NCBI GenBank assembly: GCA_021014945.1
Contig: MU266475.1
Span: 1 to 64,000, forward strand
DNA: 64,000 nucleotides
Direction: 5' to 3'
Source of the DNA: Leucogyrophana mollusca
Taxonomy: Eukaryota; Basidiomycota; Agaricomycetes; Boletales
Part shown: piece by piece, positions 12,674 to 57,815 of the stretch
Layout of the letters: each line of letters opens with the position of its first letter
Numbering within the stretch: position 1 is the first letter of the stretch
Translations under genes and position numbers: made by a program
Notes under the pieces: model-generated
The model's database searches: none
What the model saw: only the letters and a program-made list of their open reading frames with translations
Told to the model about the DNA's origin: nothing

Positions 12674-13035
12674 GAGTGTTTTACTCCGATTGTTATACTT
12701 TCTCGTTTCCATAGTGTACTTGTTCTCCTCGTTATTAGCATGACGATTTTATGAGGTTCCTCGCCACTTTCCCGGATTTTTCGGAGGAGTCTACAAATGC
12801 CAACACGGACTGGCAACATCTCATCTAGCATGAAACAAGTTGTGATCCATGGGAATATATACTGCAGGCTACTGTAAGATCGATGGTCACAGTCACCAGG
12901 GATGATTTGAAGATGTCGGAGAAGACCTGGAAGTCGTCTCTTTCTCTTCCGCTTCCGAGTCATTCGTGAAGGCTTGGTGAAATCACATGAACTTATACCG
13001 TGACTGCACCACCTTTGACCATACAATATCTCAAC

Positions 13036-14787
13036 ATGTCCGAAGATCCAGTAGAAGCAGAATCGCCGTCTGAATGGCACTCTATCCGACCATGGACCCC
13101 TCATCTCGCACTTTCAGTCCGAGAAATAACCTCGGTCTCAGCGACGTTCATCCTCTCCTCCTCGCTGGACGACTCGCGGGACCCTTCCCTGTCCGCGCTC
13201 GGTCTGTCTCCCTCAGACGACGAAGACGATGAAGCGGATAATCACCCAGGAAACGAGGAGGCCGCGCCACGACGTCGAGGCGTGGTGTCAGATGCCTTAG
13301 CGAAGGGTCTGTCTGTTGATGTGAACGCAGGGCACTGGCAGAGAGTCCTCATTCGCGTGGATGAACAGGTAGACGAGGCTGTCATCATCATCTACGGCCT
13401 AATGCCAGGAAGACAATACGATATCGACCTTGGACTTGTGCAGGGCGGGCAGAGCAGCAGCATTCGAAGGCAGGTAACTACCGAAGGTACGCTGTTCAGT
13501 GGTAGTCTTATGGCTCGTTGTTCATCGCCGTGCAAAGAATCGGAAAGTACTGCTGTAGAGACCGAGCAGGAGGGAGATTACTCAAACTTTAACACATCGA
13601 CGTCGTCTGACTCTATATCGTCTGCCGCTGCATCGCTCGCCATACCCGAATCTATCACGCCTCTACCATCAAACTCAAGCACCCCGGTACCATGCTCACT
13701 CGAAGAGCGCCTCCGTCAGCTACAACACTCCCTCTCAACGCTAACAGCCGAGCGCGACGCTCTAACCACATCCCTGAAGAACGCACGCCGAGAATCGCAG
13801 AAATCCGACGCAGCGTTGCGCTCTGAGATTGACATTCTGAAACGCGCGTCTGAGAAGAACGCCTCGGCCGAGCACCGTGCTAAGCAGAAGGTGCTAGCAC
13901 TACAGGAAGCAGCCAAGCGGGCGCAGGCAGCGACGAAGGAAATGGAGGAGATCGTCACAGAGGTCGAGGCACTTCTCCCTGCCCTGAATCAGCAGAAGGA
14001 GAAGAAAGAAGCAGAGTACGCAAAGGTGAAGGAAGAGGCGGATAAGGCGAGAGAAGCGAGGGAAAGCATGGAAGAAGAAACTCGCAAGCGACTCGAGAGC
14101 TTAAAGGGTGAATCGACAGCCCACGCGCACAGGTTGGAAAGGCTGAACGGCAAGCGGGAGAAACTAGAAACGAGCGTAGTGCCTGATCTGGAGGAGCAGC
14201 TGAGAGAGCTCGAGAGGGAGATAGAGAGAGCAGAGAGTGGGCAGCATGAATACTCTCCGATAGATGATGCCGGCCTGAGCGAGAACGCGGAGCAACAATT
14301 TGGAGCGCAGGAGTGGCCCTCTCAGCCATATCCCTCGTCCCCTCCTCGCAGACGACATCCCGGGCCCATCGGACGGCCATTAGCCACTCCCGTACAGCGT
14401 ACTGCTCCCCCGTCTGCTCCTCAGCACCGGCCGGTTGGCCATCATGCACCAACAGCGTCAGGGACATACCGTTCGCCCCCAAGTTATGCTCTCCCGGCGC
14501 CGACCAGTCCACCTGGATTGGGTAGCGCAGGGTCCACCACAAGCAGCACGTATGGCGGGTCATCGACACTCTCAAGTAAAGCCGTCCCGTTTGAACCCAC
14601 GAGAAGTGTTGCACACGCAGTCAGAACGGCAATGCCGCCATCTGGTTCGACATACGCATTCCCACCAGTGCAACGCCCCACCCACAACTCGACGTCTTCG
14701 TCTTTGTCGCTCCCCCCACCGCAGCTGCGCTACGGAAGAGTTTCGATAGCACGCCCGGACGACAACGCGAGGGCCGATATCCCTTGA
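13036..14787 (+). CDS. Coiled-coil protein with an N-terminal FN3-like segment, unknown function
   Basis: This is a single-exon gene of 583 residues. I chose the ATG at 13036; the frame extends a little further upstream only to a GTG. The N-terminal 150 residues contain an acidic run (DDEDDEADN) and a beta-rich stretch, HWQRVLIRVDEQVDEAVI followed by YGLMPGRQYDIDLGL, which looks like the last strands of a fibronectin-III-type fold. Residues about 220-415 are a long charged coiled coil with heptads full of Lys, Glu, Arg and Ala. The last 170 residues are rich in Pro, Ser and Thr and probably disordered. No enzyme motif is visible, so a scaffold or cytoskeletal adaptor role is only a guess. Confidence 0.75.
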   Translation: MSEDPVEAESPSEWHSIRPWTPHLALSVREITSVSATFILSSSLDDSRDPSLSALGLSPSDDEDDEADNHPGNEEAAPRRRGVVSDALAKGLSVDVNAGHWQRVLIRVDEQVDEAVIIIYGLMPGRQYDIDLGLVQGGQSSSIRRQVTTEGTLFSGSLMARCSSPCKESESTAVETEQEGDYSNFNTSTSSDSISSAAASLAIPESITPLPSNSSTPVPCSLEERLRQLQHSLSTLTAERDALTTSLKNARRESQKSDAALRSEIDILKRASEKNASAEHRAKQKVLALQEAAKRAQAATKEMEEIVTEVEALLPALNQQKEKKEAEYAKVKEEADKAREARESMEEETRKRLESLKGESTAHAHRLERLNGKREKLETSVVPDLEEQLRELEREIERAESGQHEYSPIDDAGLSENAEQQFGAQEWPSQPYPSSPPRRRHPGPIGRPLATPVQRTAPPSAPQHRPVGHHAPTASGTYRSPPSYALPAPTSPPGLGSAGSTTSSTYGGSSTLSSKAVPFEPTRSVAHAVRTAMPPSGSTYAFPPVQRPTHNSTSSSLSLPPPQLRYGRVSIARPDDNARADIP

Positions 14788-23060: not shown

Positions 23061-23914
23061 AAGAATGAAGACTGTTTGAGCAGGATGGATTGCCTGTCAT
23101 GGTCCTCATAGACCTATTCCGAGAGTCAAAAAAGATATCTAATGCAAGTTGGCAATTGCCACCGTTAGCAAATCAAAACGATTGGAGGGCGAGCTTTCTG
23201 CCAGCGCAGCCCCATCTTTCATTGACCAAAGGCGAAGATGTTTCTCGTCCGACTTAGAGTCGCCAAAAGCCGCTTAGTAAGTGTGGGTAGTCCGGCAACT
23301 CCCGAGACGCTCGTTTTTTGCTCATGCACACTCGTTGTATTCTCGGTTTGCTATACATCACTGAGGGTAAATCACTCGTTAGCCTATGTACCTGGAAACC
23401 CACTCCGCTCACATTCTGTGTGACACTGATGACTTCCCATATCTAGGCACATTCATTAATCCTAGTCCGCTCATCTATTCACGACTGAGGGTCACTGATC
23501 CCTTCCTGCATCCAGTTTCTATCAATTTCGACAGACACTTGCAGAAAGCTGCGGAGGCGCAGAGCTTAAGCCCATGTGAGACTTGCCCACGACACGCAAC
23601 ACATGCTTTTGGATGGAACCCGCCTTTCCAAGTTGGAGAACACCCTTCCGTAGCTGGCATGCCAGTGTCCTATCGTACAACCGATGCTAGCCGTCCAAGT
23701 AATCCGACTTCGAAGTGTCGATTTCACATAATGTTATAGAATAACGTCACATAAAACAGTGCAATCCCCGAAAATACTTCCACACATAATGTTAAGTCTT
23801 CAATCCTACAAAACGTACAAGAAGCGCCAGCTCTGATACCAGACCAGATATTAATCCATCCGATAATATGTATCATAACGGAAATCTGGTCTTGCTGCCT
23901 TTGGAGAGTCGCAT
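23061..23914. other. Intergenic, 3' flank of the secreted repeat gene
   Basis: No gene is recognised. The part from about 23830 to 23914 resembles 26310-26395 (ATACCAGACCAGATA versus ATATCAGACCAGATA, then CCGATAATA), so it is a duplicated 3' flank. Confidence 0.55.
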
Positions 23915-25429
23915 TTACTGACCGAACGCGTCAGGGTCCTCGCTACAAATCAATTCCAAGTGAGGATTTACTAGCGATGACAAGAGACGAAGACTCACCC
24001 TTCGGCGCGGCGCCAGATGGGAACGGGGCAATGCCTGTACAAGAATTCGCATAAGCACTTGCGGGCGACGCAGAGAGGAATAGGAAATTACCCATCGGGC
24101 CCGCACGAAGCATCGGGACTTTCATCCCTGAAACCGTTCAATACGTTTTCCATGAGAACGCAAGTTCAAAACTCACTCAGCGAATGAGCGAGCACCGAAA
24201 GCATCATCAGAGCCTCCACCCCTGCGAAGGTAAATTCAACACGATGGTTCAATTAAGATGAAGGTCGTGTACCCACTCAGCGAATGAGCGAGCACCGAAA
24301 GCGTCGCCAGAACCTCCACCCCTGTGAAGGTAAATTTAACACGATGGTTCAGTGGAGATGAAGGCCGCACACCCACCCGGCAAAGGCGCGAGCACCGAAA
24401 GCATCGCCAGAGTCTCCACCTCTGCAGTTTGAGTGGTGAGTACAATCGCACACGCTGCCACCCTAGCATATACTTACTGGCCGAATGCACGGACGACGTG
24501 AGGCTCGCGGACGACATGGGGCTCACGGACGACGTGCCTCCTGGAATTTTTAGCTCGACATGAGCCTTCTGCGCACCCACAATAATTGTCCAATACTTAC
24601 TCGTCAAAGTCGCGAGTACCGAAAGCATCGCCAGAGTCTCCACCTCTGCAGTTTGAGTGGTGAGTACAATCGCACACGCTGCCACCCTAGCATACACTTA
24701 CTGGCCGAACGCACGGACGACGTGGGGCTCGCGGACGACATGGGGCTCACGGACGACGTGCCTCCTAGAATTTTCAGCTCGACATGAGCTTTTTGCGCAC
24801 CCACAATAGTCGTCCAATACTTACTCGTCAAATTCGCGAGTACCGAAAGCATCGCCAGAGTCTCCACCTCTGCAGTTAAAGGGTGAGTACAATCGTACAC
24901 GCTGCCACCCTAGCATATACTTACTGGCCGAATGCACGGACGACGTGGGGTTCACGGACGACGTGGGGCTCGCGAACGACGTGGGGCTCGCGGACGACAT
25001 GGGGCTCACGGACGACGTGCCTCCTGTAATTTCAGCTCGACATGAGCTTTTTGCGCACCCACAATAATCGTCCAATACTTACTCGCCAAAGGCGCGAGTA
25101 CCAAAAGCATCGCCAGAGTCCCCACCTCTGTAGTTATGGGGTGAGTACAATTGTATACGCTGTCACCATAACATGTACTTACTGGCCAAATGCACGGACG
25201 ACGTGGGGGCGTCTCCTGTGAACCAGCTCAACGACGCTGCAGTGGTAGACTGATACCACGGCAAAAACTTACTCTTCCACTTCACGGACGATGTGGGGAC
25301 GCCTCCTATGGCTTTCAATTCAGCGCTGTTGTGGACACCAGACCCAGCGAGGACTTACTCGGCAACGGTAGCGCTGTAGGCCGTCCCGGCGACGGCAGCG
25401 AGAACGAACGCAACGGAGATGAACTTCAT
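23915..25429 (-). CDS. Secreted modular repeat protein, 15 symmetric phase-2 exons
   Basis: The family is not recognised. Exons: 25429-25359, 25305-25273, 25215-25183, 25127-25083, 25023-24925, 24869-24825, 24764-24702, 24645-24601, 24540-24478, 24421-24377, 24321-24277, 24221-24177, 24127-24092, 24034-23999 and 23942-23915. They total 732 nt, or 243 residues. All 14 introns are phase 2 and all internal exons are multiples of three. Residues 1-20 form a signal peptide (MKFISVAFVLAAVAG). Two short RRPHxVR exons follow. Three pairs of exon A (GGDSGDAFGTRxFxE) and exon B (RHVVR, then two or four EPHVVR, then AFGQ) come next. Three further A-type exons (FGARAFAG, FGARSFAE) lead to a C-terminal module with Cys219 and Cys225, WRR and a DAFGQ end. 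Dibasic sites at 25-26, 36-37 and 231-232 suit Kex2. A secreted peptide precursor is the best guess. Confidence 0.8.
24177..24421 (-). repeat. Three A-type exon units at exact 100-bp spacing
   Basis: Exons starting at 24421, 24321 and 24221 each span 45 bp and are followed by introns of about 55 bp with shared text (CCATCGTGTT-AATTTACCTTC). This is a second, different repeat period within the same gene. Confidence 0.85.
24421..25127 (-). repeat. Tandem two-exon modules (A+B) with conserved introns
   Basis: Exon A starts at 25127, 24869, 24645 and 24421, giving spacings of 258, 224 and 224 bp. Each module has exon A (45 bp), an intron opening GTAAGTATTGGAC, exon B (63 bp, or 99 bp in the first module) and an intron opening GTAAGTATATGCTAGGG. 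The introns are almost as alike as the exons, so whole genomic modules were duplicated recently. The 99-bp exon B differs by two extra EPHVVR units. Confidence 0.9.
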
Positions 25430-26379
25430 GGTAGTGATAACGATCAGGTATTGGTGGGCAACTCAAGAGTAGTGCTTGGGGACCCTGTGGTGCGCAACCC
25501 ATTCTTTAAATACCTTGACCAGGCTCGATCTGGCGCAATGCGGGCATTGGTGTGGATATCCCCCCGGATCTTTGTTTAATATATTTGACGTTTGAGGCCT
25601 TCAAGCTTCAGCGCTTCAACTTCAGTCGCCAGTGGGGGCAGGTGGGGGCTCAAGTAGACATGCGATAGTTGGTTCTTTGACAGCAACGAAACTTTTTCTG
25701 CTGATTCCGATTTGCTGCTGTTCCTTTGATGAACAAAACTCACCCTCGGATTCCCCGTTATAGACTGTCCCCGGTCGGTGCTCGGGGAGTTCAAGATCGT
25801 GTTGCAAATGGGGAGTATAGGCGAGATAGACGAAGTCACGTCTATATAGAAAGCAATTTCTCTTGATGAGCTTTTACGGTCGGGTTCAGTGGGGCGATCA
25901 ACAACATTCAACGACGTTGGCCAAAACCAGCCAAAACCTGGCATGCAAGGTATTGTGTGGGGTCGGAGGACGAGTGGACTCGGCTATTTTTGAAATTGAT
26001 TTTCGGAGGAGGCATCAGAACATGCGGAGGTGACAAGTGTAGTATTTGCGCCCAGAGCCTAAATCACCATTTGTCAGGTCGTGTTAGTCAACACCACGGT
26101 CAATCCCGAGTGGGCCACCTGGCTGAATTATGGGTGCAGTCAGGCTTTGTCCACAATTTCCAGCATTGGAAATCACGGCAAGTGGGCGGAAAGATAAGGT
26201 GGGCCTCACTGTGGACTGAGCTCGAGGCACTATGAGGGCACAGGTTTATAGGTACCTCCAGGCTCCGTCGGGCTAGTACAGGTCCCGTTTGCTTAGGCCG
26301 GACCCGGGACCCCTGAGCTCCGATATCAGACCAGATAGAAATCCTTCCGATAATAAAGTGGAGACATATATCATAAAGG
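25430..26379. other. Promoter region of the repeat gene and 3' flank of its relic
   Basis: 25440-25990 resembles 26730-27065, the upstream flank of the relic paralogue. Shared words include AGAGTAGTGCTT, AGACGAAG and GTCGGAG. 26310-26379 resembles the 3' flank of the intact gene. No other gene is seen. Confidence 0.6.
25505..25512 (-). promoter_or_regulatory. TATA-like element of the secreted repeat gene
   Basis: TATTTAAA on the minus strand lies 76-83 bp upstream of the ATG at 25429. It is a plausible core promoter element, supported by position only. Confidence 0.45.
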
Positions 26380-26730
26380 GTCTTGCGGCTGCCTCGGGGA
26401 GTCACATTTACTGGCCGAACGCAGTAGTTTGGTAGGGGCCGAGGCCGAGGCCCACTCAACGATGGATCGGCCAGCGAAAGCCTCACCGAGCTCGCAGAAT
26501 GTAATTTCAGTTCGACGCGAGCTTTTGCGCATCTTCAATAATTGCCCAATACTTACTCGCCGAAGGGACGACCAGCGAGCGCATCAGGGCCTTTTCTGCA
26601 TTACATGTCAGAGAACGGTTCAATGAGGACCAAGGATGAATACCCATTCGTGGACGTCGCGCGTGATGGGAACAGGGCAAGGCCCGTCCGTGAATTCGGG
26701 ATAGGCACTTAGAGATGAACTTCGTGGTGG
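26380..26730 (-). pseudogene. Decayed paralogue of the secreted repeat gene
   Basis: The minus strand carries the same gene in ruins. The signal-peptide start reads ACGAAGTTCATCTC instead of ATGAAGTTCATCTC. It runs almost straight into a copy of the penultimate coding exon with GPCPVPITR (GHCPVPIWRR in the intact gene). A DAL-GRPFGE exon follows with a conserved GTAAGTATTGG donor. The matching downstream acceptor TTACAG has become TTACAT. GEAFAGRSIVE (compare GDAFGARSFAE) and the terminal GCGTTCGGCCAGTAA follow. The lost ATG, lost acceptor and missing repeat modules indicate a pseudogene. It shows that the C-terminal CPVPI module and the start and end segments are the ancestral parts, while the A+B repeats may be later expansion or were deleted here. 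Confidence 0.75.
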
Positions 26731-28845
26731 TGGTGGTGATCGGATGTTGGTGAGGCTACCAAAGAGTAGTGCTTCAGGACTTACGGGTGCGCAACTAAGG
26801 CTTCCCCCCTTTAGACTGTTTTAGGTCGGTTTTGCATGGTCCGTGACCGTGATGCAAATAGGTCAGTAGAGGTTGAGTAGAGGGGACATAGACGAAGCTT
26901 GCGAAAGGAAGGCGAGATCCAACGGTGAATACATTCCATGCTAGGTCACTGTAGAAAACAACTTGTCTGTCTTAGGAGCGGCTTTGGCGGACTTGATCAG
27001 CTTCAACACTGGCACTGACCGGGAATGGGCACCCAAGATACTGTGCGGGTCGGAGATCGAGTGGGACAAGAGGACGCAAAGCCTAATCACTCCGTTGCAG
27101 CGGGTCAGCTCGGCTCTATTCAAACGACCAATTGGCGAGCGGGACGTGTGATGCTAGGAAGTTGAGCTCAAGGTAGAAGTGCCAAGATTATCCTCTAATA
27201 GTATGTTCATTTTGATTGAAATCAATGAGCTGTCCATTTTACATCGTGCGATCTGACTGTGCCTCGTCGCACCAGCTGACAGCGGTGCCCCGTGCGCCGC
27301 GGTATCAGATCGTACTTGGTCTGCGTGGCGAAGCTCTACTTTGTGCACACCGACTAGCCCCCGTCATTTCCTAGCATTGGAATAGAAATAACAGACAAGC
27401 CGACCAAGCACGTAGTTGCGGCCCAAAGGTGATAGGAACCTCCAGGCCCAGGCTCTGTGCGGCCAGTATTGGTATCAGTCAGGGTAAGGTTTGCGTAGGC
27501 CGGAACCCCAAGTCCCCCGATTCCCAATATTGTCGGGCAGGCACTCACTATAGTCGATGACGCCATCCAGGCTAGCTTTAGGCTTATAGTAAGACGTGAC
27601 AGAAGCTGTGGCAGAATGGTTGATGTGATCTGTGCTCAGCGACCTGAAGCGACTCACATATACTCAATCAGAGCACGTCAGTCACACCCGAATCAGTGAA
27701 AACGTACATGTTTACAAGTTTTAGTATAAGGGGTCCCCACAGAAAACAGAATAGATGGCGTGATAAAGACGAATAAACTAAACGCTTTATTCAACTCAAA
27801 TGCCGCGACGCGAGACAAAGTTCTTGTGTGTTGTCATAAGCAGACGATTTTCATAATTTCGATGATTGAACTTACTTCCAGATCGTGCGAGGTAGCCACT
27901 GCAAGCACGAATTTCCGGTCGTAGTCCGTTACTACATTGGGGGCACAGTTAACACATTTTCGCTCAAGAGGCAAAGTACAAACCGAGCGCAAATATATTA
28001 TGTTGTAGAAACCCTTCAAGGTCCGTCAGGGGTGTTGAAGGAGTTATGAGGGTATATGGCTGTGATGCTTCACGTTTGAACTTTGTCATGTACTTGATCA
28101 CACTGTCGCTCTATCCAGGGGGTCCATCAAGCAGATACAATATGACAGTCAAGTGCTATCGTACCGGATTTGCGCTGCCCGCTTCCCACTTAGTTTTCAG
28201 GGCAGCAACATCAACGTAACCGAGTGGTCGTCGATCATGATTTAGTACACTGAAACAGTCCAGTTAGCCAGAGTTAGCCCATTGCTCGGAGCTCAGCCGG
28301 ATGGACCAGATCGTAAGACGCACGGAATGTGAGAGAAATCGCGATCGTAAGCCAGTTCAATCGCACGCGAGATGGACTCGTCGGATGGCAGCGAAAAAGC
28401 AGGTGGTAACTGGAGATCCTATTGAGGTGGCGAAGCAAAGTCAATCAACAGCGGCAGATATGAGGCTCGACGTGTACCTCGACTACTGCACCTCTGTACT
28501 TGTCAATGGGAAGAACGGAAGAGAGCATGGACAAGGGCGGAGCGGACGCTCGAGTAGTGGACATGAACGAGGAATAAGCCGAGACTTAGAACAAGGTGCA
28601 AGCTGGCGGGTGCTTGAACGGATTTCTAATCCACGTGGCGTCTAACGCGTCTTGACGCTGACAGAATCTGACAGAACGCGTCGTTTGTCGTTTGTCCCCG
28701 TCCATTACCATTCCGCTTTCCATCTTACATCTGTACGCTATATCACAGGTATCGAATTCTCTAGCTCTAAGAAAGCACCATTAAACTTGTAGTTTTTGGT
28801 TTGAAAGGCTTGAAACGCACACTGGTGGATTTGCGTCCTAGCCTA
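26731..28845. other. Intergenic region, no gene seen
   Basis: The first 400 bp are a diverged copy of the repeat-gene promoter. A segment near 27430-27515 resembles 26250-26320 (GGAACCTCCAGG, GTAGGCCGGAACCCC), hinting at a third, further decayed duplication. The rest up to MLH1 shows only short unconvincing frames, such as 28301-28645. Confidence 0.55.
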
Positions 28846-31786
28846 ATGGGTGCAGAAACTCGTTCGGAGTCTCCTCCTCCTCCCGGGCCTCTCCCAATTC
28901 GTCGTTTGCACGAGTCTCTCATTAATCGGATCGCTGCTGGAGAAGTAAGTGCGCTCCTTGGGCCATGGCAGTTGACCGTGTCGTTAAATGCACTTCAGAT
29001 CATACACAGGCCCGCTTCAGCTTTGAAGGAGCTTTTGGAAAACAGCCTTGATGCAGGCTCTACCGCTATCCGCGTCACCGTCAAAGACGGTGGTATGAAG
29101 TTGCTGCAAATTCAAGATAATGGATGCGGTATAAGAGTCAGTTTGAGGTTGACCCTAACATACCTTTCTCTTCCTCGTGTACCAGGAAGCTAATTACGAT
29201 TCCTCAGAAAGCAGATCTTCCCCTCCTAGCAGAACGCTTCACGACCTCGAAACTGTCTACATTCTCTGATTTGTCTAAATTAACCACTTACGGTTTTCGA
29301 GGCGAAGCCTTGGCCTCAATTTCTCATGTAGCCCACCTGTCCGTCGTAACCAAGACAAAATCCGACTCTTGTGCATGGAAGTAAGTATTTCGGCGATCAG
29401 AGCTGCCTTAGCCTTTGATGCTCATTGTGTCAAGGGCGACGTACTCAGACGGAGTCCTGGTTCCTTCCAAGACGGGACAAACGCCAGATCCTAAGCCATG
29501 CGCTGGGAACGATGGAACGACTTTAACTGTGTGTCGGCCAACTCTTGAGGGGGTAAATGAATCTTACGCCTTTCGTCTAAGATAGAGGACCTGTTTTACA
29601 ACACCCCCACTCGTCTGTCCGCGCTGCGAAGCTCATCAGAGGAATACGCCCGCATCCTTGATGTTATGACAAGGTATGCCGTGCATAATCCGAGTGTCTC
29701 GTTTGTTTGTAAGAAGGTACGGAACTAGGCGAACACTTGTATTTAGTGGCTAATTAACTTTTGTCGGGTGCGCAGGCGGGTTCACCGAGCCCAGAACTCT
29801 CAACACCCTCGTCTTCGGAAATCACTCAGACGATCCGTCTTCTTTACGGTCACTCAATCTCTAAAGAGCTACTGCATATAACAACATCGTCTGACAATGG
29901 CGAAGATGACGATACCAGCGAGGATGACCCGGAATCATGGTCCGCAGAAGCGTACTTCACAAACGCCAACTATCAGGCAAAGAAGACGGTATTTTTGCTT
30001 TTTATCAATCGTTCGCGCCTTTTCCTTCCCTCTTATACGCTATTCTAAGCTGATACTACCCACCCAGATCGCTTGGTCGAATCATCGCGTATAAAACGAT
30101 CAATAGAGAGTGTTTATAGCGGTGTGCTACCTAAAGGCGCCTCGCCTTTCGTTTATCTAAGGTAACGATTAATCTCCTGGCACGAAGGACTCCTGACAGA
30201 AGAACAACCCCTCTAGCATCAAGATTGACCCCCGTTCTGTGGATGTCAATGTACATCCCACCAAGCGTGAAGTACACTTTTTGAACGAGGAAGCGATTAC
30301 GGAGAAAATATCGGACACCATACAACATACGCTTGTCGGCCAGAGTCAATCAAGGGTATTCGAGTATCAGGTATTGTATTCAGTTACATGTTTGCCTTCA
30401 TCGCATTCTTAATACAGCACATTGGATATAGACTCTACTGACAGGGGGTATCGCGGAGTCGAGCTCCAAGACACGGAAGGGGAAAGAAAAAGAACTGGAC
30501 AGGGAAGGTGATGACCATGAAGGCGAGGGCGAAGGCAGCCAAGAGTCGGGGCCACAAGGCATGTCTTTGCCTCTTGTCCCCAGTAAAACCATCTGAACGG
30601 GCTTCCGCGATTAAAAGCAAAGGAAGCCAAGAAAACGCTTTCACAGCACAAAGTTCGTACCTCTATGAAAGATCGAACACTGGACTCGATGATTCCAGTC
30701 GCCGACCCTTCGAGGGTTGATGTCTCAAACGTTGATGATCCCATGATCAACGTAGTCAAGACGCGAGAAGTGAAGGAATCCGAATGTTATCTAAGTTCCG
30801 TCAAGGAGCTGCGAAGTCATGTCCTGAAAGGAAAGCATCATCGTACGTTCACTTTCAGCCCCAATCCGAGTTGATTCAGTTGGCTTACTTTACTTGCGTA
30901 GAGCTCACAGAGATAATCGAGAAGCATATATTCGTCGGAATTGTAGACCTCCCCAGGTGCCTGTCCCTTGTGCAGCACTCGACGAAGCTTTACCTAGTCA
31001 ATCACGGTAATCTAGCGTGCGTAGCCACTTGGTTAAAAGCCACTATCGATCTCTGACCGTTCTTGCTTACCAGAGAGGAGTTATTCTATCAACTCGCTTT
31101 ACGACAATTTGGTGACTACAGTAGACTGAAGCTAGATCCCCCACCTCCATTGCGTACACTTGTGAAACTCGCTGTCGACGTGGAGGAAGGGACAGAGAAT
31201 AGCCGCATGAGCAAAAGCGAGATAGTTGACGTTAGTTAATATCCCCAAGGCTCAAGCTGCAAGTCTTGGTCGGAGCTGACTTTGTCACAGTGCATCGTGG
31301 ATACCATTCTGACGCGTCGAGCCATGCTTTTGGAATATTTCTCCATCAATATCACACCCGAAGGAGACGTCCAGTCCCTACCCCTGTTGCTGCGGGACTA
31401 CACTCCGAACCTCGACAAACTGCCCATGTTTCTTATGCGCCTTGGGCCGCAGGTGAGGCACTACTCTTAAATTTCTCGCTTCGTCGCTTCATCCACCTTA
31501 TCATTAGGTTGATTGGACCTCAGAGAAGGAGTGCTTTAGCTCGCTAATGCGCGAGTTGGCATACTTCTATGCGCCGGGGCCAATCATGACCATGCCTGCT
31601 CCGACTTCTTTTCCATCCCACAGCGAACAAGACAAGGCGCAGGAAAAATCTGACAAGTGGCGAATCCAGCACGTTTTGTTCCAGGCGATGCGACGTTATC
31701 TCATAGCTCCCAAATCCTTACTCGACCGGGACGTCGTTCAAGTTGCAAGCCTCGCCGAGCTCTACCGAGTGTTTGAAAGGTGTTAG
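28846..31786 (+). CDS. mlh1: DNA mismatch repair protein MLH1
   Basis: This is a MutL-family GHKL ATPase that pairs with PMS1 or MLH3 in mismatch repair in the nucleus. The start is the ATG at 28846; upstream codons in frame use only TTG. The N-domain shows [66 protein letters not shown] and [20 protein letters not shown] ends the N-terminal domain. After a linker, [17 protein letters not shown] leads to the C-terminal dimerisation domain with [26 protein letters not shown] and the conserved terminal FERC. Splice-ready exons include 28846-28944, 28999-29136, 29208-29380, 29435-29528, 29582-29716, 29776-30010, 30068-30161, 30217-30370, 31074-31230, 31291-31452 and 31508-31786. Around 30580-30620 the linker frame changes with no ordinary intron, so either a very short intron or an indel lies there. 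Confidence 0.92.
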
Positions 31787-40048: not shown

Positions 40049-42361
40049 TCAGACAAGCGTTATAGTCTGTCGACGCGCCATATCGTTATGGAAATGCCAC
40101 AGTAGACCCGGCTTCGTCTCAAAGTACCCAAGTCGACGGTAGCACTCATTCTCCACACGTTTCACCAACAGACCCACAACCATTCTCTCTCCCGGTACCT
40201 CATTCCATCCGATTGGTATAGCAAACGTCGGTTTATCTTCCTTTCCCCGCACGCTGTCCAACCATTCCACGCATGCAGAGAAGGCCGTGATGCGCTGTGC
40301 TTCGTCTTTGTCGCTGTCGATTTCCACTGGCCGAAAAGCCTTGCCCGACCAAGGAAACTCGTCTTCCTTGCAGTCACTTTCCATCCAAGTACGGCACTCT
40401 GCGCAGGACGAAACGTCGAATGTGTCGACGAGGCGTGAATTTCTGTCTCCCCTCTCGATAGGCAGCATCTGTGCGCTGAGCCTCAATGTCCCAGCCACAA
40501 CACCTCCGAATATGGCTCGTGTGCTCTGGGGCGTTACTTCGCAGCCCACAATCTCGCATAGATCGCATGAGATACGCACAGAGCGCCCCAAGACCCCATC
40601 GAAGGCGGTGGAAGTGCGTCCCACGACTCCGTCGAAGGCCATGATATCACCGTCGGTCGCTGCCCACGACCACGACGGCGCACGATATTTGGCAGGCTCC
40701 GGGAGGACTTTACTTTTGTGCCGCTTCCAAAGAATTTCGCGGCATAAGCTGCGCCGCCAGAGGCCTGCAAGGTAATCGTCACCCCATGCGGCGAAGAAGT
40801 GTTCCGCAACACCCGCAAACGCGACGAGCTTGTCTGCGGGATCGGTGAGCTTGCGTCGCGTGTAGTCCATCAGGACGAAGCGCCACGCAGCTTCGAGCAC
40901 GAGGATTTCGGGATTTGTGTCCGTGAGGGGTAGAGGCGCAGGTGAGAAGGTCACGTTTGGAAGCCGATGGAATCTGTTTGGTGGGCAGACCGCTCCACCA
41001 ATGTTCGCCGTTTCTGCCTGGCACTCGTACTGCAACGTCGCGCTTGTGTATATCAGACAGCGTGGAGACAAAAGGCGCTCTTGGAGGCACCAAGCGCGCT
41101 TGTCAACAGGCTCTGCCGCATCGCTGTAGCCGTCATGCACTAGTGAAAATGTACCGAGTTGACCGTCGGGGCAGAGGAACGGGAGATTTGTGTGTGCTTG
41201 TACGCTGCGGTCCTGTAGATATCCGTCAGCTGCCTTGGAGGCGCTCGCTGCGATGACAGTGACGTAGGCATCGCGGTACACTGCGCGCATGCGCGAGATT
41301 TCGATGTCCTTGTCTGAATCTGAATCTTGAAGGATACACAACGCATCGACCCAGAGGTATCGGATGCCTAGGCTATGCGTAGTGTTGATTGCATCTGTGA
41401 TGGTCCACGGAAGGACACCCAGATCGATGCCGACCTGCACAAGTGTATGAATATTTGTCGTAGTGGCGCAGAACTGCGGTCCACCCCAAACATAGCTGAG
41501 AGCTACGTAGTGTCCGTGGCTGCCATAGCTGAAAACAATTTTGGGCGACCTAGGGTTCGAGCAATCGATCACTCGCGTGGGGAGCGGCGTCAGACATGGC
41601 TTCGGACACTGTGGGTGAGTATTTATACATCGATCCATGCATTCCAACGCGATTTTGGTGCTTAGAGGCGAGCCGACCTGCAGCATGCAATCCCTGGCGG
41701 GGATATAGCTCGCGGCATTGTTGTCTGCTCATCGGGAAATCATCAGTGATACAATACGGCGTATTCCCGACCATACACACCTGCTGCAGTGTACGTGAGA
41801 TATGAGAGTGTAATGTCGTTAATTGTTACCTGCAAATTTTTTGCTCCCTCCGGCATGGGGGCAGAACATCCCCTTGTGACCTTACTCTCATTGGCTAGTA
41901 TGGTTGCGACGTGGACGGTATGGGTAAATCGCGGGTCTATGACCTTCCCGTAGTCACGCTCCAGCAAGCCGCACCACTGGCATCCTGCCACAGACGATTT
42001 GAAGATCTCGCTGCGGGTAGTACTGTAAGAGAATCCACTATGCCCTCCGGTTTCTAAATGGTGACAGAGGCTGTCATTCCATACTTTCTGAAATGACTGA
42101 TGGGTGAAGAGTCGTTCCCAACAAGGGTCGCAAACCAGTGAGTGGATGGTGCTTGTGGGATGATCTTCTACATGCTCGACGGGATTGCGGATGTCTCCAG
42201 TGGACGTTAGCCTATGTAGAATGTTGCCACACTTTTCGAAGACACTTACCACCGTCCGACCTCGTACGCCTCAAATTCTGTTCCTTGGTGCGATCTACTT
42301 TGTCAGACTTCTTCGATCTGGACCGACATCCACAAAATTCTGCCAGTATGTCCCATAGCAT
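40049..42361 (-). CDS. HET-domain (heterokaryon incompatibility) protein
   Basis: The start at 42361 (MLWDILAEFCGC) opens a short first exon ending at a GTAAGT donor near 42250. An acceptor before ACATCCGC keeps phase into DIRNPVEHVEDHP. The second part carries paired cysteines (LVCDPCWERL and CQWCGLLERD). After an intron near 41760-41700 the last exon encodes the HET domain: YVALSYVWGG, LGIRYLWVDALCILQD, MRAVYRDAYVTVIAAS and KRAWCLQERLLSPR. The remaining 300 residues continue to the stop at 40049. HET domains in other fungi trigger non-self recognition death or act with NLR partners; in Agaricomycetes such genes are numerous and mostly uncharacterised. Length is about 700 residues. Confidence 0.87.
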
Positions 42362-42980: not shown

Positions 42981-43952
42981 ATGGCCAGGTTTTACGACGA
43001 GATTCCCGAATATCTTATCGAATGGATAAAGAAACAACATATGTTTTGGGTCGCTTCTGCACCTCTCAGCCCTGACGGCCATATAAACGTATCTCCCAAG
43101 GGAACAGCAGACTGCTTCCACATTATCGACTCTCACAGAGTATGGTACGAAGACCTGTCAGGAAGTGGTAAGCCATTCGTGCCCGCTGAGCGAATCAGGT
43201 ATTGATTGATAGAATTGCCAGGCGTCGAAACAATATCTCACGTGCGGGAGAACCGGCGCATCACCATTCTCTTTAACGCATTCGAGGGCCCACCAAGAAT
43301 CACAAGGTTGTTTGGGATCGGTAGCTGCCGTCCCCAAGTTGACGACAATATACTCAGACTTTCTCTTATCGTTCCACAGGCACTGTGCATGAATTTGGTA
43401 CCCCAGAATACCAAGCACTTATCCCCGCAGAAACCCGCAACCCTGGCTCTCGCGCCGCCATTGTCATAGATGTATATCATGTCGGGACTGTGAGTGGACA
43501 TGAGTGAATACTTGACGTTCCTAACAACAACCCTGTCTTGCCACCAGTCTTGTGGCTTCGCAGTCCCTTTGTACGACTTCGTTGGCCAGCGGACCCAGCT
43601 GCTCCGAATCTTAGACCGCATCGAATGTGGTGCTCGAGCTCCCGGGGCAGCCAAGAGCACTAGCGCAGGGATGAAAGGCTATTGGGTGGAAAACAATTTG
43701 AGGAGCTTGGACGGCTTGCCGGGTCTAGTTACAGCACCCGACTCCACAGCTCCCTTTGCGAACAACTTTAATCGCGATACTCCTCGGCCGACGATGAAGA
43801 ACGTCAAGCCCGGTGCATCCGGGGCAACAAAGATAAGCGGCAATATGTCGATGCATCTGCTTCTTGGTTTTTTTGTCGGTGTAATATTAACGACTGCAGT
43901 CTTCGGACTTATTGATAGCCCCAGATTCGAGCTCTTTACGAATAGCCTGTAG
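42981..43952 (+). CDS. PPOX/FMN-binding split-barrel protein, C-terminal membrane anchor (copy 1)
   Basis: Exons 42981-43167, 43222-43320, 43380-43489 and 43548-43952 join in frame. The N-terminal 200 residues are the pyridoxamine 5'-phosphate oxidase-like fold: FYDEIPEYLIEWIKKQHMFW, HINVSPKG, RVWYEDLSGSG, HVRENRRITILFNAFEGPP, RLFGIGTVHEFGTPEY and SCGFAVPLYDF. Family members bind FMN, heme or F420; the true substrate is not evident. The C-terminal third is a low-complexity linker, then a hydrophobic anchor (LLLGFFVGVILTTAVFGLI) near the end, suggesting a tail-anchored protein. A paralogue with the same exon plan lies at 45410-46380, with a secreted protein gene between them. Confidence 0.87.
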
Positions 43953-44440
43953 CTGGTTCGGAAATTCACAAATACATCGTCTATTCAGTCCTTCCGGTGC
44001 TCTCAGCATCACCGACAACAACGTATCTTGGCCGAGTCCGTATCACTAAGCTTCCAGGTCCAAAGGTGATCCCATAAACATTATCCGGGCCAATGCGACT
44101 TTCGAGTCATGCACCAGGACCGTTCGGATCATTGGCTCCGACCGGCCTCCTCATAGCGTAAGGCTGCGTACGGTTGGGGCTGAACTGAGAAGTATCCTCG
44201 GAATCCCTTTCGCCTTCTTCCAGGCGAAAATGCAATGCCAAGGCGGGCATTCATTCGGGTCCTTGCTGTAGTGGTGGAAGCGATACTCGACTTTCCGTAC
44301 TTTGGCGGTATAAACAGCGAAGTGGCTGTTCAATCCCCTTTGACTTTCGCCAGTTCAACTCAGGTATGTACCCAAGTCCATTCACTCCATGCATCTGCTT
44401 AACCCTGGAAATCCCATTTGTGATTATTGCCAGCAGATAC
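43953..44440. other. Intergenic region
   Basis: It holds the 3' flank of the first PPOX gene and the promoter of the secreted protein gene. No gene seen. Confidence 0.55.
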
Positions 44441-44960
44441 ATGTTTTCGTTGACGATATCATCTGTTGTTTCCATTGCTGTAGCTGTCGCCGTCGTTGCG
44501 GACTGCACTTTCGAGAATCAGAAATACGACTACGAACTTCAACTGTGGACGGGGAGGGGCTGCACGGGAGAAGCTGTGGTTTACCATGGTGCTAACAATG
44601 GCTGCAATTGCCATAACATCTCATCCGCACTGAACGACAAAATCGGATCATTCGTCTGGACAAGTGGACAAGAAGTGATTTTCTGGAAGGTATGTTAAGT
44701 TGTCTGATGACGCCTGATCATCAAACTCATTCGTTGAAAGGATGCCAACTGTCAAGGCTCAAATCTGGGTATGTTAGCTGCTCCATCGTTGGTGATGCTT
44801 GTTTCACAGACTCCCAGGTTCCTCGGTAGGCGACTGGGCCAAAGACACGAGCAGCAACGGAATGCAAATGACGTCTTTTCAAGTCTGCTCGTGAGTGATA
44901 GAAGAGCTAGTCTCCTAAGAGTACTGTCGTCTTCATGATTATGTAGCCATTGCATTGTAA
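44441..44960 (+). CDS. Small secreted cysteine-containing protein
   Basis: The start at 44441 gives a hydrophobic leader, MFSLTISSVVSIAVAVAV, with a likely cut before DCTFENQ. Exons 44441-44689, 44741-44768 and 44818-44890 join in phase. The mature part of about 95 residues carries six or more cysteines in C...GC...C-x-C...C...C arrangement (GRGCTGE, GCNCHN, DANCQGS, FQVC). The 3' end is not settled: after TGCTC a GTGAGT donor leads to a last short exon near 44947. No homologue is recognised. It could be an effector-like or crystallin-like small secreted protein. It sits between two paralogous PPOX genes on the same strand. Confidence 0.7.
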
Positions 44961-45409: not shown

Positions 45410-46380
45410 ATGGCCAAGTTCTACGACGAGATTCCTGAATACCTTATCGAATGGATAAAGAGGCAACATATGTTCTGGGTTGCCTCTGCGCCTCTTGACC
45501 AGAATGGCCATATAAATGTTTCTCCCAAAGGCACCACAGACTGTTTCCATGTGGTCGATTCTCACAGGGTTTGGTATGAAGATCTGTCGGGAAGTGGTCC
45601 GTCTTTCGCTTCGATTGAGAATATGCGTTGATGGACGGTCTACATGTACAGGCATTGAGACTATATCCCACCTACGGGAGAATGGGCGGATTACTATTCT
45701 CTTCAACGCTTTCGAAGGCCCACCAAGAATCACGAGACTATGGGGGTTCGGTAAACGCAATGCGTGTTCCTGACATAGCCATCCTCTCATCACAAGCCCA
45801 CAGGCACTGTCCATGAGTTCGGTACTCCGGAATACCATGCACTCATACCCGCAGCAACCCGCAAGCCCGGTTCTCGCGCCGCCATCGTAATAGACGTGTA
45901 CCAAGTTGGGACTGTGAGCGCCGATTACCTGTCCGGGTTTCAATGATCTCATCCTTACGTCTCCAGTCATGTGGTTTCGCTGTTCCACTGTACGACTTCG
46001 TTGCTCATCGAACCCAACTACTCCGATCATTTGATCTCAAAGAAACATGCGACCGGGTTACGGACGCAGCGGCTTCGACCGAGAGGGACGAGAAGGGTCT
46101 GAGGGCCTACTGGGTTCGAAAGAACTTGAAGAGTTTGGATGGACTGCCAGGTCTGCTCACTGCGCCGGACTGCAAGATCACACCCACGAGTAATTTTGAT
46201 CGCGACGCGCCTCGTCCGATGATGAAGACCACCAAACCAAGAGGAAACGGGGTGGCGAACATAAGCGGCAAGACGGGCTTGCTCATCGGCTTCATGATTG
46301 GTGCCTTCGTCGCAACTGCGGTTCCGAGAATCATCTCTAGTGATATTTCTCGGTTCCAGTTCTTCCAAAGCACGGTGTAG
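45410..46380 (+). CDS. PPOX/FMN-binding split-barrel protein, C-terminal membrane anchor (copy 2)
   Basis: Exons 45410-45596, 45652-45750, 45804-45913 and 45967-46380 have lengths of 187, 99, 110 and 414 nt. The first three equal copy 1 exactly, so this is a tandem duplicate. Shared motifs are FYDEIPEYLIEWIKRQHMFW, HINVSPKG, RVWYEDLSGSG, HLRENGRITILFNAFEGPP, GTVHEFGTPEY and SCGFAVPLYDF. The C-terminal linker has diverged but still ends in a hydrophobic anchor (LLIGFMIGAFVATAV). Role and cofactor are as uncertain as for copy 1. Both copies look intact. Confidence 0.87.
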
Positions 46381-53746: not shown

Positions 53747-56486
53747 TCAATGCAGATACGGCTCCACGTTCTTCAGGAGATACTGGCTAAATATCTCCTC
53801 GTCGGGTTTCACAGGGGACCCGTGGAAATGCAGACCAAACATCTGGAACAAGAATTGCTGCGCAATTTGCCAGCTCTCTTCGTGTGACGGCGAGCATTTG
53901 TATGCCGCGCGTGAAGAGGCCGACATCATGAATCCGCACTTCTTCTCGTGACAGCGGGTGGCGTCTACCTGAAGCCATTCATCCAAGGGCCTATTCCTGT
54001 CGATGAGGGCGCCGTTATAGTACCGAAGGCTGATCCAGAGGAGGACCCAGCCCAGGGATTCAGCGTCGTGTTGATACCGGTGCGTGATGTGGCCAGCCCG
54101 GCCTTCGTGCTCAAGAAGCTCGATCGCCATGAATGGAACGGTGCCAGTCCGTTCGTTGCCGGTGGGGCCCTGCTTCGTCGAGGCTAGGTCGAAGTCGTTA
54201 ACGACACCAACTGGCACATTGTCTTTGAGATAGTACATTAGATTGTTCGCACTGATGTCCCGGTGGTGAACCCCGCCCCTCCAAAGTTTATAATGACCTT
54301 CACCAGCGGTCAGTTAGGGCTGACCAGTTATAGAAACGGAAACGAGATCTCACACATCGCAGTTTGCCACCAAGTTCGCAGGAATACCTTGTCGCTGAGG
54401 TCGGTGATTGGGAGTAGCCTTCGGAATACGATGCCGCAGAATGTGCGAGCGCCCCGGAAAGGATCTGCCATGTTTAGCGCCACCCTAATCGTCGCCGTGG
54501 AGGTCTCCTTGAATTTATGGGCCCAAATGAATTCCGGCACGTGTCCCGCCACATCTGGGTCGTCCTTCGCGATTTCATAAACTTTCTTCAGGATATCCTC
54601 CTCGCTCTCGCGGCTATTTTCTGGCCAGAAAAGCTTAATGACCAGTTCCCCGGCCATGTTGTGCCGTGGATAATCGGCGCTATTGGGTAAGTCCCCATGT
54701 TCCCCTGACAAGGCCCGAAGAGTAACAGGCAGGACATTGGTAGACCGTCCCTTCAGGCCATAGTGAAAGGCTTTATGATGACGCGGGAGGCGAATACGAA
54801 GCTCAACTGGTGTGTGGTGATCGTCGACACGGATTGTGCACCAGCGGTCTTCCTTGGACCTTTTCACCCGGAATAGCTGGCTGAGACCCCATTCTTTATC
54901 GCCAAATCGTTGCATTGCAAGCAGGAGGACCAAGAAGCGAGGGAGGTCTTGTACGAAATTGACACCAGAACACTGGAATGTACCTTGGCGGTCGAAACGC
55001 CACACATACACAACGTCATCTGCTGGATGATCAGTGACGTTCATGAAGATAGCTCGAATGACTTCACTCGCCTAGGATGATCAGACTAATGACGTGGGGA
55101 CGCCCGAGATGAGTTGCGAATAGTTCTGCGGCGTACAGCCCACCCTGGACTACAGCAGGAGGCCTGTCTGGGTCAGACTCCGGTGGAGAAGGTTTCGCTC
55201 GTTTGTTGTCCAGTTGGCTGACCAGTGCGTCATCGGATGGACGTTCCCGGTCCAACCTAGCCCTCAGGACACGGCCAGAGGGAACGGCTAGATTATCAGA
55301 CAAGTCAGGGATTATGCTGTAGATATCATAATGATGACAACTTACGCGCATTGGCGGGGGCTTTGCCCTTTCCTGTGCAGAATAAATGCGGGAAACAATG
55401 CAAACGAGTGAGTTGATAGAATTTCGATGGAAAATTGTTGGTTAACCTTTAAGGGTGCCATCCTGTGTGTTCGAAGAAGGGTCCGGGGCCTCTGCAGCCA
55501 TCTCGACCTCATCCACGAACGCCTCGGCCACAGACTTGAGGGCAAGGTCAGCGTCATCGAGTTCCTTCAAAACGCTAATGGAAAGGAACGGTTTGGTGGG
55601 TTTGACATAGTCCTTCACTTCATAACGTGTAGGCACGCCGCCCAGTTTCCTTTTGGTCGCTTTGAATTCGACAGCGCACCGAACGTCCGCCCATTTGAAA
55701 GCCTTTTCGGGGGGCTGCGATGCATATGTCCGGTACATGTCGGATTTCTCTGCGTGCTCATCATCCTCATTGCCAGCTTTGGTAGCTGTCGCCCAAGGGA
55801 CGACAACAACGTCAGGCTTGCGTCTCGACACACGTCCCTGGTGAGTTTGGCGGATTTCCACGGGGTCACTTCGATGGAAAAGAATGTTACGGTCATCGTC
55901 CCAATCCATGGCACGAATTAGACCACGCGGAGCGAGGTCGCCAAGGCAACGAAGTGCGCAATTGACGGCTCGAACGAAGGGGGCATAGCGGCTGGTCTCG
56001 TGTTGTGGTTTGATGCTGCGAAGGATGATCAGCGCCCGCCACCTGGCGAAGGTAAGAGCTTACTATTCCTTCAATGCCGCCTTTATCTCTGAGGAGTCCA
56101 CCGGGTCTATCTTCTTCCGCCTGTACTCGCCGTTGCAGATGGGCAACACGGCCGCAAGACATTCTTTATACAACGATGCCTTGTCAATCGATATATTCGG
56201 ATCCCTGCAGTCATAAAGGAACTCCGCGAGTAAAGCATCTGGTAAGCATTCCTGGTACTTCTCCACGTCGCGCATTATCCAAGGCCAGACGTCCTTCACG
56301 CTATAGGAAGAATGAGTATGTTGTGCGTGATTGAAAGAGGAGCAAAACGTGCTCGATGCCCAAGGTCTCAAGGTGTTCGCTGATAACCGCCGCCCCCATC
56401 GAATTCGGCGTCGATTGCAGACTCTCGTTCGATACGACACCACTTGGGTTCGCAGGCGGAGTCTGGGGTCGAGCAATATCATCCAT
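53747..56486 (-). CDS. Fungal-type protein kinase FunK1 (copy 1, apparently intact)
   Basis: FunK1 kinases are basidiomycete-expanded protein kinase-like proteins. It starts at 56486 (MDDIARPQTPPANPS). A helical N-domain follows (WIMRDVEKYQECLPDALLAE, PICNGEYRRKKIDPVDSS) and then the beta-rich FunK1 region (ATKRKLGGVPTRYEVKDY, NILFHRSD, DMYRTYASQPPEKAFKWAD). The kinase lobe begins with GRSTNVLPVTLRALS and ELVIKLFWP, where the lysine is the likely ATP contact. EIAKDDPDVAGHVPEFIWAH is next. The catalytic loop is HHRDISANNLMY with both His-Arg-Asp and Asn, and the metal motif is VNDFDLAS (DFD). VPFMAIELL, HRYQHDAESLGWVLLWISLRY and PLDEWLQVDAT lead to the stop at 53747. At least six introns are needed. 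Its nearest relatives are the two damaged copies downstream of its promoter. Confidence 0.85.
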
Positions 56487-57349
56487 GTCGGATTGTGGAC
56501 GGTTTCAAAATCAAAGAGGATTGTAATGTTGAAAGACGGTTAAGCCCACCTTTTATACCGGCTTCCGTCTTTTGTCAGTCCAGTTAAGGGCCACAATGCC
56601 CGAAAGTTGCTGTGGATGTGACTTGCGATAAACGATTCCACTTGAACGTCCGCGTTCAGGCTTTACATTACTGTGGCTGTGTCGCGAGCGCCCACCAGCG
56701 CCCACCATGCCACACGAGTCTGTTACGCCACACCACGCGACACAAACGCAACTGATACCGATGTGGCACAAAGGCTCACCAACTAATTTAAGCTGTTCGA
56801 CTCCTGACTCCTGAGGACCTCGATTGTTTGAAGAGTCTGTAGGTCATTAACTCTAGGGTCAAACTGAACTCGAAATGGCTGGAAGCTATCGCGAAATAGT
56901 GTAGACCCGTGAGTAAATAGTATTATTGGGCTGTCTGAACAATCTGGGGTACTCGAGCTCAGTTGCGCCACTCTCAACGTGTATATGTCGAGTCAGGACA
57001 AAGTCAGGACGCGACCGATTTGACGATTTGACGTTCGTATGTTATTTGACCCTTAGGGAGCGATAGATCCGCTAATTATACAGAGGTCCTTGATCCGAGA
57101 AAGTGTCCCCTTCACATGTCACAGTACCTCGTCAAACAGTCAAAATCCATATCGAATATCGTCAAACTGCAAATATGGACTAGATTTGTGATTCAAACGT
57201 TCAACAGCAGTATACCGTAAGACACACATACCCAGCTATGCGTTGCAATAATATATACAACGTCTACCTAGCTGTCACCATAGCAGTCTTGTTCGCACAA
57301 CCTGCACAACCTTCCGGCCTTCCTCGTGCTTGCCTTGTGCGACGGCGAA
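56487..57349. other. Intergenic region within the FunK1 array
   Basis: No gene seen. Short tandem words occur (GCGCCCACCA twice near 56690-56705; ACAAAGTCAGGAC and GATTTGACG repeats near 56995-57030). Confidence 0.5.
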
Positions 57350-57735
57350 CCATATTTTAATTTTAAAGACCGCCGTGAATCAGAAGAGCCGACTTCTTCT
57401 TGTGACAACTAGCGGCGGGGACCTTCAACCCATCATTGAGGCGTCTATTCCGGCCAATGATGGTGCTATTGTGGTATCGGGAGCCGATCCAGACAAGGAC
57501 CAAGCCCAAGGATGTAATGTCGTGTCGATACCAGTCGGCGATAAAATCAGCTTGATTATACTGTACTCCTCAGGAAGCCGCACCGCCATGAACGGAATGG
57601 TGCTAGTCCGTTCGCTGCTGGTGCATCCCCCGGGCGAGGCTAGATCGAAGTTGTTGACGACACCCACCGGCTTGTTTTTCAAACTGTGTGAGATTGCGTT
57701 CGCACTGATGTCCTGATGGTGTTGGCCGGCCGCGA
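57350..57735 (-). pseudogene. Truncated FunK1 relic
   Basis: A short piece of the kinase lobe is left on the minus strand. HHQDISANAISHS (catalytic Arg changed to Gln, metal-binding Asn context disturbed) leads to KNKPVGVVNNFDLAS, ERTSTIPFMAV and a decayed DAE-WVLLW region. It lacks both ends and lies between two longer FunK1 genes, so it is probably the stump of a third tandem copy. Confidence 0.75.
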
Positions 57736-57815
57736 TGACCTTCGTTGGCGTTCCATTAGAACTGACGAGTCATTAGAATTGGAGACAGGAACCCACACGC
57801 TACAATACATTCGAA

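Follow-up and report, generated by a model that had tools for sequence, protein, structure and literature searches.

How might a gene of fifteen very small exons have grown in a wood-decaying, mushroom-forming fungus of the Boletales, and what could it encode? The question is raised by the minus strand of Leucogyrophana mollusca contig MU266475.1, in the window analysed here (by which we mean the whole stretch, positions 1 to 64,000). The original prediction described this locus as the gene of a secreted repeat protein, built from tandemly duplicated, symmetric phase-2 exons. We rebuilt the coding sequence from splice signals, and it occupied 23915-25429, read from 25429 down to 23915. The model contained 15 exons and 14 introns; the joined exons were open from ATG to TAA and specified 243 aa. 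From 5' to 3' the exons measured 71, 33, 33, 45, 99, 45, 63, 45, 63, 45, 45, 45, 36, 36 and 28 nt, and the introns 53, 57, 55, 59, 55, 60, 56, 60, 56, 55, 55, 49, 57 and 56 nt (range 49-60), with a GC content of 64% in exons versus 46% in introns. In this splice-signal model all 13 internal exons were multiples of three and all 14 introns lay in phase 2, precisely the all-symmetric architecture that had been claimed. Transcription and splicing of the gene are predicted from its DNA.

Two exon types alternate in the gene: type A reads HVVR(EPHVVR)n-AFGQ and type B reads GGDSGDAFG-TR/AR-xFxE/G. All coordinates that follow are on the minus strand. Exon 1 (25359..25429, 71 nt) holds the ATG and a signal-peptide-like start, MKFISVAFVLAAVAGTAYSATVAE. 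It is followed by exon 2 (25273..25305, 33 nt), which encodes RRPHIVREVEE, and by the A-type exon 3 (25183..25215, 33 nt), which encodes RRPHVVRAFGQ. The B-type exon 4 (25083..25127, 45 nt) encodes GGDSGDAFGTRAFGE. Exon 5 (24925..25023, 99 nt) is of type A with four EPHVVR units of 18 nt, exon 6 (24825..24869, 45 nt) of type B, exon 7 (24702..24764, 63 nt) of type A with two EPHVVR units, exon 8 (24601..24645, 45 nt) of type B, and exon 9 (24478..24540, 63 nt) again of type A with two units; exon 3 has none. The B-type exon 10 (24377..24421, 45 nt) is the first of three units at 100-nt spacing, the others being exon 11 (24277..24321, 45 nt; GGGSGDAFGARSFAE) and exon 12 (24177..24221, 45 nt; GGGSDDAFGARSFAE). 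Exon 13 (24092..24127, 36 nt) encodes DESPDASCGPDG, and exon 14 (23999..24034, 36 nt) encodes HCPVPIWRRAEG. Exon 15 (23915..23942, 28 nt) encodes EDPDAFGQ and ends in the stop codon TAA at 23917-23915, which lies in a context resembling an A donor. Unusual donors were found at introns 10 and 11 (GTGGGT) and at intron 13, where the GTAATT behind exon 13 deviates from GTRAGT. A possible weak donor, GTAAAT, coincides with the stop (23917) and leaves the 3' end of the gene uncertain; AG acceptors at 23833 and 23806 would permit a longer 3' end.

An exon structure could in principle be read into a GC-rich, non-coding tandem repeat that is never spliced and has open frames by chance. Consistent with this, two frames are open across the internal exons, and unspliced ORFs of 153, 98 and 84 aa span exons and introns. 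We therefore applied a frame-blind scan for chains of splice signals (acceptor-to-donor exons of 21-140 nt, introns of 45-70 nt, any stop-free frame). At the gene 13 internal exons were chained, 12 of them identical to those of the model, while the first used a different acceptor. By contrast, 200 dinucleotide shuffles gave chains of 0-3 exons (the maximum of 3 in 3/200), and among 148 half-overlapping tiles of the window, chains longer than 3 appeared only in the three tiles that overlap the gene. On other contigs, 20 stretches of 10 kb (40 strands) yielded a maximum of 5 on one strand and 4 on another, with mixed phases. Together with the difference in GC between exons and introns and the periodic differences between copies described below, these controls make an unspliced origin very improbable, and the unspliced ORFs are regarded as by-products of a GC-rich repeat.

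The symmetry of the exons is independent of frame, but phase 2 is not. The phase 1 frame, whose first ATG lies about 50 codons in, also crosses all 13 internal exons with no stop, and the chain reported for the gene ran in phase 1 (the scan breaks ties arbitrarily); the splice chain alone therefore cannot fix the phase. We assigned phase 2 from the ATG and the signal-peptide-like first exon, from the stop at the end and from an excess of third-position changes. Between neighbouring copies, 2 differences fell at first, 8 at second and 18 at third codon positions (p = 0.0008), the corresponding counts being 2, 8 and 15 when exon 5 was left out (one-sided binomial p = 0.006). These comparisons are few and not fully independent, and copies may share history via gene conversion. 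Under phase 1 this third-position excess would become a second-position excess.

The modules bear traces of copying. The 224-nt module at 24375..24598 (exons 9 and 10 with introns) is 94% identical to the one at 24599..24822 (exons 7 and 8 with introns), and a 179-nt stretch in the region of exons 3-4 (25030..25208) is 91% identical to 24772-24950, all on the minus strand. The introns were copied along with the exons, as predicted: introns 3, 5, 7 and 9 are mutually 78-98% identical, introns 4, 6 and 8 mutually 90-95%, and intron 10 is 84% identical to intron 11. The predicted spacings were recovered as well, at 223-224 and 258 nt for A+B modules and at exactly 100 nt for exons 10, 11 and 12. 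Three A+B modules had been counted, and these are present, but there are four B exons (4, 6, 8 and 10), each preceded by an A exon (3, 5, 7 and 9), so that exons 3-4 are a further, partial A+B module. Gaps between the compared module copies amounted to 1 nt in introns (4 vs 6, 5 vs 7), and to lengths of only 36 or 66 nt in exons. Consecutive internal exons flanked by phase-2 introns were thus copied with those introns, forming a tandem phase-2 exon array, and both the intron identities and the exon symmetry back growth of the gene by copying of intron-bearing exons. We propose that the units duplicated were exon-plus-intron units of about 100 nt and two-exon modules of 223-258 nt, with the 18-nt EPHVVR repeats varying inside A exons. 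The symmetry of every internal exon means that exon skipping, like unequal exchange, would alter the repeat number and leave the frame unshifted.

A broken tandem copy of the gene lies at 26316..26795 on the same strand, about 0.9-1.4 kb upstream of its start codon. The 5' flank and first coding bases of this copy match 25498-25416 of the gene at 76%. The stretch directly behind matches 24060-24010, in intron 13 and exon 14, at 79%; the copy has no ATG at the position of the first exon, and its exon 1 is truncated. An internal stretch that includes an intron matches 25092-25025 at 85%, with two other such introns matching more weakly, and the last exon and 3' flank match 23929-23829 at 75%. 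Readings resembling the units, DALAGRPFGE and EAFAGRSIVE, follow the pattern D/E-A-F/L-x-x-R-x-F/I-x-E, for which the same scan gave three more, unrelated-looking matches in the six frames of the window. As these peptides keep the pattern, what was passed on seems to be the unit of exon size.

A broken neighbour raises the possibility that the whole locus is degenerating and without function, the gene persisting by chance after the other tandem member has already decayed. The unusual donors of introns 10, 11 and 13 and the failure to find relatives (see below) fit this idea. However, 15 of 15 exons are open, differences are concentrated at third positions, and the exon pairs compared contain no frame-breaking gap, whereas introns contain gaps of 1 nt. 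We consider a degenerating or functionless gene quite unlikely here.

The end of the gene resembles its internal splice junctions. We aligned 1109 TAA sites (window, both strands) to the A-type donor junctions, over 12 exon and 9 intron bases. Eight sites matched at 16 or more of the 21 positions, a cut chosen at the gene stop's own score after that score had been seen, and all eight were in the gene or the neighbour copy: four A donors (21), the terminal stop of the copy (19), its internal donor (17), the stop of the gene (16) and one B donor (16). Two sites scored 15, another B donor and one unrelated site (42745, plus strand), so that the gene's stop is just one above the best unrelated site, and shared AFG codons supply part of its match. 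The two terminal stops match each other at 18/21 and their 3' flanks align; the case for a relation between stop and donor therefore rests mainly on the stop of the copy. At the stop of the gene the context is CAG TAA ATG, against CA/GTAAGTG at an A donor (the slash marking the junction), with GTAAAT replacing GTAAGT; the longer contexts are CAGTAAATG for the terminal stop and CAGTAAGTG for the internal donor. From these alignments, the end of the gene and an internal donor thus seem to have a common ancestor. It could be that the last exon is a module with an unused donor, or that stops gave rise to the internal donors, and the change may have gone in either direction, from stop to donor or from donor to stop.

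A phase-2 intron with a GTRAGT donor always begins with an in-frame stop, xxG TRA. In the model an in-frame TAA or TGA opens 12 of the 14 introns (intron 13 through its GTAATT), and the two GTGGGT introns reach one at nt 26. Retention of any single intron would consequently truncate the protein, in most cases precisely at the edge of a module, and each stop-bearing module boundary would be a point at which the transcript is either spliced or stopped. This property is by itself not evidence of regulation, as any phase-2 GTRAGT intron has it. One route to such a structure would start from a terminal exon ending in CAG TAA ATG, one base off a donor. After a tandem duplication, splicing could remove the inner stop and join the following copy in frame, by way of a new intron that would necessarily be in phase 2. 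Such an origin of donors from stops would explain why all introns are in phase 2. The junctions would stay switches between splicing and stopping, which could give a ladder of secreted proteins with rising repeat number. That a stop codon and a 5' splice site can stand in for each other here, and that this drove the growth of the gene, is a tentative proposal which we would sooner doubt than assert.

We then asked how widely the gene is distributed. The genome searched comprised 32.3 Mb in 545 contigs, and all counts of matches are lower bounds. DNA searches returned the gene and the neighbour copy; protein searches returned the gene locus alone, at 11 or more places, and no further copy was found in the contigs by either search. 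The 243-aa product had no homologue at E <=0.01 among 5.8 billion proteins, with the best 7995 candidates scored, and a shortened product of 108 aa had none at E <=10 in the same number of proteins (17 candidates). These searches span proteins of about 134-425 and 59-189 aa, respectively, a range that longer or strongly misannotated models would escape. The same collection does hold the protein of a neighbouring gene: the product of 12991-14784 is identical to L. mollusca BV22DRAFT_1094142 at 566/566 residues; the alignment has a single gap, of 17 residues in the uninterrupted reading of the window, and these 51 nt are probably an intron. As the repeat product itself was not found there, its gene probably lacks an annotation or carries one of very different form.

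Elsewhere in the window several other loci were noted. At 28801-29193 (plus strand) lies the start of an MLH1-like mismatch-repair gene, with a Pfam HATPase match and named MLH1 by eye, which may serve as a synteny anchor. Judged by eye, fragments at 20.4-23.1 kb (minus strand) resemble a P450 and an SNF2-type helicase; five of five ORFs tested there had no Pfam match, and they are possibly relics. A HET-domain (heterokaryon incompatibility) gene occupies 40052-42270 (minus strand). Two similar tandem ORFs at 43494-43949 and 45817-46377 (both plus strand) share CGFAVPLYDFV, SLDGLPGL and a hydrophobic C-terminal stretch, and may be a duplicated, possibly tail-anchored protein pair. A small ORF at 44189-44695 (plus strand), which has a hydrophobic leader and contains several cysteines (TFENQKYDYELQLWTGRGCTGEAVVYHG...), is possibly secreted. 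Two similar tandem genes of fungal-type protein kinases lie at 53750-60052 (minus strand), with Pfam Pkinase_fungal in one tested piece, 57819-58361. Finally, this Boletales genome contains at least 35 UstYa (DUF3328) matches, several of them close together on contigs C364 and C417, which are candidate RiPP-type clusters. A dikaritin/ustiloxin cluster at the repeat gene was rejected, as none of the 35 UstYa matches of a six-frame search, which gives lower bounds, lay on its contig (C149).

Residues 4-18 of the product form a hydrophobic core with a mean hydropathy of 1.97, which suggests a putative signal peptide (judged from hydropathy only). The 243 aa contain EPHVVR 8 times, HVVR 12 times, GGDSGDAFG 4 times and DAFG 7 times, and the two-cysteine segment is present at the C-terminal end. 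After residue 20 the product has a hydropathy of -0.71 and a pI of 5.6; the protein contains one Trp and two Cys, and it is expected to be a secreted, disordered repeat protein. The dibasic sites were recovered in part: there are three RR (residues 25, 36 and 231), but two of these precede Pro, and KR, RK and KK do not occur. The third, in exon 14, is the sole RR without a following Pro, and directly before it stands the Trp of ...CPVPIW; the most peptide-like part of the product is accordingly SPDA-SCGPDGHCPVPIW-RR. Profile matches in the genome included a kexin-type P-domain on contig C125 and a DPPIV_N gene on contig C226. DPPIV_N occurs in other dipeptidyl peptidases besides Ste13.

On balance, we think it rather likely that the locus encodes a lineage-restricted, secreted and probably unstructured L. 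mollusca repeat protein that grew by tandem duplication of exons together with their introns. Secretion, processing and function are predicted as follows. The protein would enter the secretory pathway, and Kex2 could cut at the C-terminal RR, releasing a peptide ending in ...CGPDGHCPVPIW. A Ste13-like enzyme might trim this peptide at its SP/DA dipeptides, a single disulfide might close it, and the multivalent Arg/His and Gly/Asp repeats would form a pro-region or an extracellular binding scaffold. Three functional readings are kept: a C-terminal peptide with a repetitive pro-region, peptides derived from the repeats, and an intact extracellular scaffold.

The second of these would make the product a canonical KEP, from which kexin releases the repeats as many short peptides (EPHVVR, AFGQGGDSGDAFGxR). 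Like the KEPs of PMC6339444, PMC7329392 and PMC9769878, as far as the accessible parts of these papers go, the product has a signal-peptide-like start, short repeats, and an RR after a segment ending in Trp. Its repeats are nearly identical and each carries a terminal Arg. The mushroom KEP peptides QYKAPSW and MSGVAADW also end in Trp, and Ste13-type trimming has been proposed for them (PMC9769878, in the part available). The EP behind Arg resembles a Ste13 dipeptide, and kexin-type and DPPIV-type genes exist in the genome. Nine of the 28 Arg stand in a V-R/E context, which counts against such cleavage, but for mushroom KEPs produced in Pichia, products ending at a single Arg were observed and single-Arg cleavage was suggested (PMC9769878, same part). 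The Trp-RR and these Pichia products make processing conceivable. The published definition requires KR, RR or KK between repeats, and no RR separates the EPHVVR or GGDSGDAFG repeats here; by that definition the product is not a KEP. Release of the repeats by kexin is in our view unlikely. Support for the peptide precursor originally proposed, taken as a Kex2-type one, is thus partial and weak. The product also differs from an alpha-pheromone-like precursor, in which a core peptide is repeated behind a Kex2 site and XA/XP Ste13 dipeptides, as the Cys-Cys-Trp segment occurs once and is preceded by SPDA, with no dibasic site before it. The strings 'intron', 'exon' and 'splic' are absent from the available main texts of PMC7329392 and PMC6339444; in that of PMC9769878 'intron' occurs once and the other two do not.

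Alternatively, no peptide would be freed, and the protein would be a disordered component of the cell wall or surface whose repeats stay intact and, being multivalent, bind a ligand such as metal (through His), a wall polymer or a partner protein, with repeat number tuning avidity. The composition suits this (G 36, R 28, H 14 and D+E 40 of 243), as does the low hydropathy behind the leader. SP7-like effectors of Rhizophagus offer a fungal parallel: these are secreted repeat proteins that vary in repeat number, which matters for binding (PMC11333574, in the part available). They have a conserved intron before the first repeat, and that part does not mention an intron for each repeat. On the other hand, the 243-aa product has no Pfam match, no anchor or binding domain is apparent, and the C-terminal Cys/Trp segment before RR resembles a processed peptide. 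We regard an intact scaffold that frees no peptide as a minority possibility, and continue to favour the lineage-restricted secreted protein outlined above.

If confirmed, this would mean that a mushroom-forming fungus makes a secreted repeat protein by copying small exons that bear introns. Because the product was not found in a collection that holds its neighbour's protein, surveys of secreted peptides in fungi that work from proteomes may overlook such genes. The similarity of stop and donor would offer a simple possible reason for phase 2 in such arrays. Judged by title and the start of the abstract, no gene of such shape in fungi was found among the papers listed.

Bicycle proteins of aphids carry two CYC motifs. 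Their effector genes contain many tiny internal exons, almost all in phase 2, evolve fast and have few relatives by sequence (PMC9168663, available part). The gene described here is similar in its small internal phase-2 exons and in having no relatives by sequence search, but the bicycle genes form a large insect family, and that part of the paper makes no mention of near-identical exon copies in tandem. Schistosome MEGs, seemingly restricted to schistosomes, have short symmetric exons, which splicing can skip with no change of frame, and products exposed to the host (PMC8293314, accessible portion). The likeness to them lies in short symmetric internal exons (13/13 here); MEG exons are mainly <=36 bp according to the same portion, versus 4 of the 13 internal exons of our gene. 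In Tetrahymena, more than 96% of about 72,000 LRR exons of 90 bp are flanked by phase-2 introns, and the arrays are recent lineage-specific expansions for which unequal crossing over was proposed (PMC6564038, as far as available). There too, tandem symmetric exons were copied with their introns in phase 2. The Tetrahymena case concerns a ciliate with very many such genes, an LRR domain and longer introns, which in the youngest group of T. thermophila measure about 257 bp (same source, available part), whereas ours is a single fungal gene without a known domain, with two alternating exon types of 33-99 nt rather than one exact exon length, and no Pfam match to LRR. The distinct evolutionary route that had been claimed is therefore one that we have not seen for fungi but that has precedents outside them, in Tetrahymena and, for the small-exon architecture, in aphids and schistosomes. 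The similarity of stop and donor together with this architecture in a fungal secreted repeat protein seems to be a new combination.
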